A stretch of DNA of 64,000 nucleotides, taken from the NCBI GenBank assembly GCA_017550145.1, contig JAFZQG010000004.1:62001-126000 (forward strand), given 5' to 3'. The translations under genes were made by a program, and so were the position numbers. Position 1 is the first letter of the stretch. Each line of letters begins with the position of its first letter. Under the pieces are notes generated by a model that saw only the letters and a list, made by a program, of their open reading frames with translations, ran no database searches and was not told the origin of the DNA. This stretch comes from Erysipelotrichaceae bacterium. Lineage in GTDB: Bacteria > Bacillota_I > Bacilli_A > Erysipelotrichales > Erysipelotrichaceae. This document shows positions 48,175 through 49,663 of the stretch, in pieces.

Positions 48175-48219
48175 TATTCTTCTCCGCTTGTCTTTCTGCT
48201 TTAATCTTACTATAAACAA

Positions 48220-48241
48220 GGCATCAGCTGATGCTGATGCC
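48220..48241. terminator. GCATCAGC-stem hairpin 1
   Basis: A perfect 9-bp stem (48220-48228 with 48233-48241) with loop TGAT lies after the first double-glycine peptide gene on the minus strand and is followed there by a weak T-rich stretch. It is one of five hairpins in this region that share a GCATCAG stem. Confidence 0.7.
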
Positions 48242-48267
48242 TGGTGATTAATAATGGTTTGTAACGA

Positions 48268-48549
48268 TTATTTGCCTAAAAGCTTGTTCTTTTTTGAAAG
48301 CAGGCTGTTTTTCTTGGCAAGTTTGTTGGTTTTCTCGTTGATGGCGTTCTCTTTCTTCCCCAGCCGATCTGATTTCTTAAAATAGTTTTCCTTCTCAAAA
48401 AAGAGATTAACTTTCTGCTCCAACATATCGGTTTTTTCCAGTAAACTGTCGAGTTTTGATTCCAGCCTATCGGTTTTTTCACCGAACATTAAATATGCTC
48501 CGCCATTTACATCTTCAAGTTCTTTATCATTTACTTTTTTCTTTGCCAT
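48268..48549 (-). CDS. Double-glycine leader peptide with coiled-coil core, paralog A
   Basis: The 93-residue gene product starts MAKKKVNDKELEDVNGG, a leader of 17 residues ending in a double-glycine cleavage motif, with hydrophobic residues at the expected positions before it. The core has heptad-like repeats (EKTDRLESKLDSLLEKTDMLEQ) and a lysine-rich end, KKNSLLSKKNKLLGK. There are no Cys or obvious modification residues. Its neighbour at 48.6-48.9 kb shares the leader, the EKTD repeat and the end. The protein is likely exported and cut by a C39-type transporter outside this window. Function is unknown. AAAGGA precedes the ATG. Confidence 0.85.
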   Translation of the reverse strand: MAKKKVNDKELEDVNGGAYLMFGEKTDRLESKLDSLLEKTDMLEQKVNLFFEKENYFKKSDRLGKKENAINEKTNKLAKKNSLLSKKNKLLGK

Positions 48550-48581
48550 AATATTTCGTCCTTTAATTGCAGATGTTTATT

Positions 48582-48869
48582 TTATTTACCTAATAGCTTG
48601 TTCTTTTTCCTGAGCAGGCTGTTTTTCTTGGTCATCTTGCTGTTCTTCTTGAAGAACATTGTTTCCTCTTTCTGTTCAAGCAAATCTGCTCTCTCTAAAT
48701 AATTTTCCTTTTGTTTCATTTCGAAGAGATCCACTCTACGTTCCATCATGTCGGTTTTTTCTAATAATTCATCAAGTTTTGCTTCCAGCATGTCGGTTTT
48801 TTCATCAAACATTTTTAAACCGCCATTTACATCTTCAAGTTCGTTATCGTTTACTTTTTTCTTTGCCAT
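48582..48869 (-). CDS. Double-glycine leader peptide with coiled-coil core, paralog B
   Basis: The 95-residue protein starts MAKKKVNDNELEDVNGG; the frame is open further up, but AAAGGA nine bases upstream of 48869 supports this start. It shares the EKTDMLEAKLDELLEKTDMMERRVDLFE repeat and the KKNSLLRKKNKLLGK end with paralog A. The middle (MKQKENYLERADLLEQKEETMFFKK) differs. The three leader-bearing genes have separate ribosome binding sites and gaps of 30-50 bases, so they are probably co-transcribed toward 48.2 kb. No immunity or modification gene is recognised. Confidence 0.85.
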   Translation of the reverse strand: MAKKKVNDNELEDVNGGLKMFDEKTDMLEAKLDELLEKTDMMERRVDLFEMKQKENYLERADLLEQKEETMFFKKNSKMTKKNSLLRKKNKLLGK

Positions 48870-48937
48870 ATTTGTTTTTCCTTTCAATTATTTCTTCTGT
48901 ATATTTATACGAATGATTGCTCAATTGTGGCTATATT

Positions 48938-49168
48938 TTATGCAATACATTCTCTATTTTTCAATTCGGCAATTATTACTTCTTCTTCGGTCTGGTTTGC
49001 TTTTAAATAATCAATAATGATTTTTGCTCTATTGTAATCAATCACATGATACTCTGTCCTGTATCCTATTTTATCTTCATAATACAGTTTCATATTGTTC
49101 TCATCGAGACTAATGGTTCCTCCGTTTATCTCTTCAAGAACTTCATCATTAAGTTTCTGTTTTGCCAT
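48938..49168 (-). CDS. Double-glycine leader peptide with a different core
   Basis: The 76-residue product begins MAKQKLNDEVLEEINGG, a leader like the two neighbours, but the core (TISLDENNMKLYYEDKIGYRTEYHVIDYNRAKIIIDYLKANQTEEEVIIAELKNRECIA) is mixed alpha/beta with a Cys near the end. The frame has an earlier ATG at 49174. The second ATG (49168) is better spaced from AGAGGAT. The shared leader with unrelated cores suggests several exported peptides using one exporter. Confidence 0.75.
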   Translation of the reverse strand: MAKQKLNDEVLEEINGGTISLDENNMKLYYEDKIGYRTEYHVIDYNRAKIIIDYLKANQTEEEVIIAELKNRECIA

Positions 49169-49258: not shown

Positions 49259-49663
49259 TTAATTCAAATTCTCTGTTTTTATTCCGCTGTTATTAATTGC
49301 GTATTGTATTTCTTCTGGAGTAAAGCCAAAATCAGAAAAATGATTATAAATGAAACTAGTATCCCAGACCCAACTATTTTCGTATGTCTCATATTCTCTG
49401 CCGACTTCAATCATTGCTCTGGCTAAATTCGTAGCCTGATCATTAAAATCAATCTCGAGAGCTGTAATAGCATTATCGATGTCATTAGATGAGTAGCCTT
49501 GTTTTTTAAATTCGTCCTGTATCATTTTTCTACTACAAAACTCAGTATAGCGTTCACCATTATCGTCCTTGTATGCACACCTTTTTTCTTTTATATAATT
49601 TGAAAGACTATTAATCAGTATTTCGCTATTAATATCCGAAACATCTAATTTATTAGAAAGCAT
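49259..49663 (-). CDS. Hypothetical protein with an Ltp-like C-terminus
   Basis: The 134-residue soluble protein is acidic and predicted all-alpha. Two segments (KMIQDEFKKQGYSSNDIDNAITAL and SFIYNHFSDFGFTPEEIQYAINNSG) each form a helix-turn-helix-like repeat resembling the repeated module of Ltp-type host-surface proteins. That likeness is by eye. No signal peptide is present. It lies beside the double-glycine peptide genes in the same direction and may belong to the same system, for example as an accessory or immunity protein, which is speculation. Confidence 0.5.
   Translation of the reverse strand: MLSNKLDVSDINSEILINSLSNYIKEKRCAYKDDNGERYTEFCSRKMIQDEFKKQGYSSNDIDNAITALEIDFNDQATNLARAMIEVGREYETYENSWVWDTSFIYNHFSDFGFTPEEIQYAINNSGIKTENLN

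Follow-up and report, generated by a model that had tools for sequence, protein, structure and literature searches.

Heptad-repeat peptides with double-glycine leaders and a single distant NHLM-type exporter in an Erysipelotrichaceae genome

A double-glycine (GG) leader common to many small proteins, a family of heptad-repeat cores behind it, an exporter of the NHLM type, the co-occurrence of leader and exporter, a promoter-like block and the helix prediction for the heptad cores are established here by computation, and secreted helical peptides are consistent with this evidence. The window, that is the whole stretch of 64,000 nucleotides analysed, corresponds to C25:62001-126000 of a genome of 2.02 Mb in 41 contigs. 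According to our preferred reading, to which we assign a probability of about 0.5 as a whole, the heptad peptides would be made unmodified, cut after the GG motif and used as helical components of a coiled-coil structure in the cell envelope.

Three GG-leader genes in the window

In the ORF listing three small ORFs occupy the minus strand at 48268-49168, at the positions given in an earlier note on this DNA (Table 1). The best starts are at 48549, 48869 and 49168, each preceded at sensible spacing by a purine-rich ribosome-binding site; the same listing holds longer versions from earlier start codons at 48887 and 49174. Precursor 1 begins 32 bp downstream of precursor 2. The leaders of the three peptides are MAKKKVNDKELEDVNGG, MAKKKVNDNELEDVNGG and MAKQKLNDEVLEEINGG, those of precursors 1 and 2 having the form MAKKKVND(K/N)ELEDVNGG. 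A common leader had been proposed as MAKxKxND(x)ELE(D/E)(V/I)NGG; the leader is indeed common to the three genes, but this consensus is slightly too strict because that of precursor 3 ends ..EVLEEINGG. All three carry V or I at −4, L at −7, V or L at −12 and GG at −2/−1, and with these hydrophobic positions and the GG they would, as far as sequence can tell, qualify as substrates of a C39 exporter. A leader HMM of 20 positions, built from 37 precursors of the genus, detected the leader of precursor 1 in its own genome with an E value of 5.1e-8, and the pattern YTNGARGANRTNAAYGGNGG gave four exact matches and nine with one mismatch in that genome, against none for the reversed control pattern. 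Across 70 precursors the GG is invariant and the L reaches at least 90%. No match of the window peptides to the NHLP and Nif11 leader domains (TIGR03793, TIGR03798) was obtained in NCBIfam at E ≤ 1.

Precursors 1 and 2 are paralogs, whereas the core of precursor 3 is unrelated to theirs, both as previously described. A Pfam search with precursor 3 gave no match, its model shows weak β-strands followed by a helix (pLDDT 64.5), and a fold search with this low-confidence model, which found no PDB match at E ≤ 0.001, was discarded. The peptide contains a single Cys (..NRECIA), so the earlier statement that these peptides have no Cys is limited to the heptad pair. The 134-aa neighbour is a possible operon member; it shows a weak, sub-threshold match to the host cell surface-exposed lipoprotein repeat PF07553. 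Glycoside hydrolase genes flank the GG genes on both sides. The terminator-like hairpin belongs to a class with a weak signal (three found versus 2.1 expected in a consensus scan), and a sigma-70 promoter scan remained at chance level.

Table 1. Coordinates of the features described (window positions unless a contig or locus is given)
Feature	Location	Strand	Remarks
Terminator-like hairpin	48219..48242	-	10 bp stem and T-rich tail, just 3' of precursor 1
Heptad-repeat GG-leader precursor 1, 93 aa	48268..48549	-	ORF with good ribosome-binding site; leader residues 1-17 at 48499-48549, core 76 aa; homologs in genomes G112 and G113
Heptad-repeat GG-leader precursor 2, 95 aa	48582..48869	-	leader 48819-48869, core 78 aa
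Promoter-like block AGCCAC-N15-CGTATAA	48905..48933	-	upstream of precursor 2
GG-leader precursor 3, 76 aa	48938..49168	-	leader 49118-49168; core unrelated to precursors 1 and 2
134-aa neighbour without GG leader	49259..49663	-	directly upstream of the GG genes; only sub-threshold family matches
Third heptad paralog in own genome	C25:530878-531153
NHLM_micro_ABC1 exporter gene	C32:40944-43067		only C39 peptidase gene in own genome
Divergent heptad GG peptide/DUF885 lipoprotein pair	L015:6154-6328, L095:5505-5659, L094:2653-2802		three species

The exporter and the dispersed leader set

A C39 exporter encoded elsewhere in the genome had been predicted, and it was found on a contig other than that of the window. 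The absence of an exporter, which the earlier note held to count against its reading, is therefore not the case, since a single C39 gene is encoded. Its product, an ABC1 protein with C39 peptidase domain (TIGR03796), scores 935.4 bits over a cut-off of 853.3 and retains all the signature residues of the peptidase, Cys27 (ECGAACL), His101 (HFVV) and Asp117 (NDPA). In the operon it follows a 137-aa HlyD-like ORF and precedes ABC2 (TIGR03797), which exceeds its cut-off by a borderline score (709.6 versus 709.4 bits). The HlyD-like partner matched TIGR03794 at its N-terminus only, with 31.7 bits, below the cut-off of 156.2. It is short throughout the genus, 137-159 aa (L011:8488-8901:+ and equivalents L027-L038), as in a minimal adaptor. 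The ORFs listed around the exporter include neither a GG precursor nor a recognisable modifying enzyme. Four genomes (G112, G113, G131 and G135) contain a second C39 ABC transporter of about 590-610 bits, under the NHLM_ABC1 cut-off.

Leader and exporter occur together. When the 36 draft genomes of the genus were compared, all 15 with a clear leader (best E ≤ 1e-3) had either a C39/NHLM exporter or a clear fragment of it, and neither was present in the remaining 21. For the 273 genomes of the family, with the leader taken as at least two matches at E ≤ 0.01 and the exporter as a C39 domain with E below 1e-20, both were found in 24, the leader only in 2, the exporter only in 23 and neither in 224 (Fisher p=2.6e-19, a value inflated because the genomes share ancestry). 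One of the two leader-only exceptions, G102, is 57% complete and does contain an exporter fragment, and part of the exporter-only class may be explained by the loss of sensitivity of the genus-built leader HMM outside the genus.

The three genes of the window are real, but to treat them as a group of their own was too narrow. The search for further leaders that had been proposed yielded, by HMM and inspection of the matches, at least 22 genes of this genome that carry a GG leader. They lie on contigs C2, C3, C25, C32, C38 and C39, mostly with unrelated cores, and the window genes are a sample of them. About 70 distinct precursors, in roughly 60 unrelated core clusters, were collected from the genus, and the number of candidate leaders in a genome ranges from about 3 to about 45. 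Three ABC ATPases (L056, L058 and L068) also fitted the leader regular expression but were dropped as false positives. Pfam domains recognised in the cores are ferredoxin (n=3, best 1.6e-17), rubredoxin (1.6e-11), LysM (1.7e-11), NlpC/P60 (3e-7) and double zinc ribbon (4.6e-6). LysM and NlpC/P60 act at the cell wall and therefore provide independent support for export.

Several of these proteins merit description in their own right. The GG leader precedes a two-cluster [4Fe-4S] ferredoxin (Fer4) in three species (L094:485-772:-, L051:1758-2009:- and L074:287-685:+); an exported ferredoxin would be unusual. The rubredoxin bearing a GG leader (L082:2053-2259:+, the same gene as L074:1465-1671:+) is encoded close to a GG-ferredoxin and to another Cys-rich GG protein. 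The LysM protein is encoded in the genome of the window, on contig C2 (L149:1282-1548:-), with a weak leader score (E 0.445), and at L089:711-1232:- a long helical leader ending VVGG is joined to the NlpC/P60 domain. Several members of the genus carry a longer leader (MAKTQEELN..LTEDELKQVAGG) besides the short one. In G112 near-identical leader scores recur at C28:36657, C30:37937, C32:38 and C34:26, some at extreme contig ends, which suggests a repeated, possibly mobile, GG-leader gene that breaks the assembly.

Many of the dispersed genes have an upstream element in common. Of 73 GG genes, 26 have CGTATA(A/T) in the 130 bp upstream, against 3 of 167 control ORFs; the p value of 1.6e-12 is only descriptive because the motif was spotted by eye before being tested on an overlapping gene set. 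Alignment on this 7-mer alone brought out a second block, TTGCC(A/C)(T/C), whose distance from it is constant, so that the whole element reads TTGCCAy-N15-CGTATAA. We take the −10-like CGTATA to resemble an ECF-type element. The block is absent before precursor 3 and before the exporter operon. This common promoter-like block suggests that many of the dispersed GG genes are co-expressed.

Heptad cores and their possible role

The description of precursors 1 and 2 as paralogs with heptads and a common KKNSLLxKKNKLLGK end was borne out. They are 68% identical, their cores have no Cys, Trp or Pro, and dN of 0.21 against dS of 0.85 (dN/dS about 0.25) indicates constraint at the protein level, that is purifying selection on the pair. 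Identity at a lag of seven residues is 0.27-0.32 in the window cores and up to 0.68 in relatives (G113), and it exceeds all 2000 of 2000 shuffles in each of the six heptad members. These six members, from three species, comprise the window pair, the third paralog and homologs in 2 of the 35 other genomes of the genus (two genes in G112, one in G113), and they form the largest core family among the GG precursors. Beyond them, a coil profile gave only weak matches in genomes of the order, judged to be chance, most of which fall within long ORFs (330-623 aa) or in frames broken by stop codons. A wider contig scan returned matches in two goat-jejunum Erysipelotrichaceae MAGs only, apparently G113 and G112 themselves, and tblastn of one heptad protein against plasmids and phages found none, hence no sign of a mobile heptad family.

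The repeat consensus of the family is A-Q-K-T-D-L/M-L/M. With the six-sequence alignment, the AF2 monomer model of precursor 2 is predicted as one helix from residue 8 to 92 (mean pLDDT 83, pTM 0.36). When solved structures were searched with the heptad profile, the sole match at E ≤ 0.01 was a designed protein-origami chain (E=0.0018). Sub-threshold Pfam matches to the coiled-coil families Sec10_N, RNase_Y_N and UPF0184 were set aside as matches of composition. Moreover, in each of the three species a gene for a DUF885-domain lipoprotein lies divergent to one heptad gene; these lipoproteins are 57-62% identical between species while the other neighbours mostly differ. The pairing holds for one of the three heptad genes of the genome studied and is absent at the window pair.

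The mechanism that we propose would start from unmodified precursors with a GG export leader. The single distant NHLM-type exporter, consisting of ABC1 with its C39 domain, ABC2 and the short HlyD-like adaptor, would recognise the leader through L/V at −12, L at −7, V/I at −4 and GG at −2/−1, the C39 domain would cut after the GG and the core would be exported. Cleavage and export by this exporter are very probable, and an unmodified mature product, extracellular or bound to the envelope, is likely. The cores of the pair, as amphipathic helices of 76-78 residues in seven-residue units of consensus A-Q-K-T-D-L-L, would then associate among themselves and with components of the envelope in a surface or extracellular structural layer, the DUF885 lipoprotein being a candidate envelope partner by its divergent gene pairing in three species. 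That the product is a structural coiled-coil assembly rather than a toxin or a signal is put forward tentatively, at slightly less than even odds. The same exporter would serve the at least 22 dispersed small GG-leader proteins, many of them under one promoter type.

The pair might instead be unmodified class II-type bacteriocins, possibly of the two-peptide kind, killing competitors as cationic amphipathic helices. The GG leader is typical, the adjacent genes are paired, and the cores are amphipathic and net positive (+7 and +3). The first 18 positions of the class IIb model for lactobin A/cerein 7B (TIGR03949) resemble the window leader, with scores of 15.5 and 14.3 bits under a cut-off of 21.5, but the match is confined to the leader and the core is unrelated. 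We consider this explanation unlikely, given that the single C39 gene lies on a different contig, away from the pair, that no recognisable immunity gene was seen beside the window GG genes, and that ferredoxin, LysM and other non-toxin domains stand behind related leaders. To our knowledge, cores built of exact heptad repeats, poor in Gly and free of Trp and Cys, do not resemble those of known class II bacteriocins. The earlier contrast with known bacteriocins was thus fair but incomplete, since GG-leader proteins of envelopes and biofilms that are not bacteriocins are known (MAM, EbfG1-4).

A coiled coil is not the only use of such a helix. Heptad positions 4 and 7 might correspond to a and d, yet position 6 is also Leu or Met, and because this gives no simple a/d fit the core may also be an amphipathic helix that binds lipid. 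Monomeric helices binding membranes or polymers, or signalling peptides, would agree with a hydrophobic face made of positions 6, 7, 1 and 4, which is broad, includes Lys and is wider than an a/d stripe, and with the position of the window genes between glycoside hydrolase genes. We regard such roles as improbable in view of the length of these highly regular helices (76-79 residues), which is long for signalling peptides, and of the designed origami chain as sole structural match. Enzymatic modification of the cores before export, as in RiPP precursors, is very improbable: exporters of this type first became known in connection with modified natural products (PMC2887384), but inspection by eye and partial family scans showed no modifying enzyme among the ORFs near exporter or precursors, and the heptad cores lack Cys and are long and fold-like. 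It is hardly credible that the leaders are incidental N-termini of cytoplasmic coiled-coil proteins; although domains of the ferredoxin and rubredoxin types are mostly found in the cytoplasm and export of the window peptides is deduced indirectly, the leader is all that is conserved between the about 60 core clusters, and it goes together with the exporter in every leader-bearing genome of the genus.

Known systems and wider meaning

The usual interpretation of a GG-leader peptide or a C39 exporter is that it is part of a bacteriocin or RiPP machinery. The exporter and the leader described here are of already known kinds. Among the closest known cases is MAM of Faecalibacterium (PMC12184118, PMC8836110), which also comes from a gut member of the Bacillota with a short GG leader and a PCAT-type exporter. 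MAM has been found in abundance in the envelope, where its organisation at the surface is lattice-like (PMC12184118); its self-assembly there has been proposed, and its leader, with V(−4), E(−8) and I(−12), resembles those of the window. The likeness is drawn from leader and exporter, not from core sequence, and MAM is a single protein family with an adjacent PCAT, whereas here the exporter is remote, the precursors number at least 22 and the cores of the pair are heptad helices. EbfG1-4 of Synechococcus elongatus are likewise several small GG-motif proteins handled by a C39 peptidase transporter, PteB, which their efficient secretion needs; mutation of the peptidase cysteine reduced secretion of the GG-motif proteins, and their role is in biofilm and not that of bacteriocins (PMC4997328). 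They differ in being cyanobacterial and encoded by four genes on one polycistronic transcript, and have no domains of known function and no reported heptad cores.

With the NHLM/NHLP export system (TIGR03794/03796/03797; Haft et al. 2010, PMC2887384) the present one shares ABC1 and ABC2 proteins over the cut-offs and many precursors per genome, but its leaders are short, with no NHLP or Nif11 match, its HlyD partner is much shortened, no modifying enzyme was seen near precursors or exporter, and the precursors are dispersed. PCAT1/CtA of Clostridium thermocellum (PMC6959990, PMC8794836) likewise involves a C39 ABC exporter by which GG-leader polypeptides are processed and secreted; here the architecture is ABC1+ABC2 of the NHLM type and the cargo is different. 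Diverse cargo is plausible because a microcin-type exporter is promiscuous and mainly limits its cargo by length (PMC10231218).

As far as the searched literature shows, what is new is the family of heptad cores, the large scale and scattered placement of an apparently unmodified cargo with a common promoter-like element, and the GG-ferredoxin and GG-rubredoxin; the literature covered, which included few subscription-journal papers or bioRxiv preprints, contained no description of these features. A broader proposal, which we hold to be speculative and rather doubtful, is that in this Erysipelotrichaceae genus the NHLM-type exporter serves as a general route of secretion. Its cargo would be dozens of small proteins that are unmodified, fold independently and stand under one promoter type, ferredoxins and rubredoxins among them, and the heptad peptides would form an envelope scaffold or lattice. 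Genome by genome, one orphan exporter tracks dispersed GG proteins with redox, cell-wall and coiled-coil cores. If the proposal is true, such exporters would be a general route for the export of small proteins in gut Bacillota, and 'bacteriocin' annotations in these bacteria would need a different interpretation. As a possible natural coiled-coil material of the surface, the regular heptad peptides would then also be simple and synthesizable.
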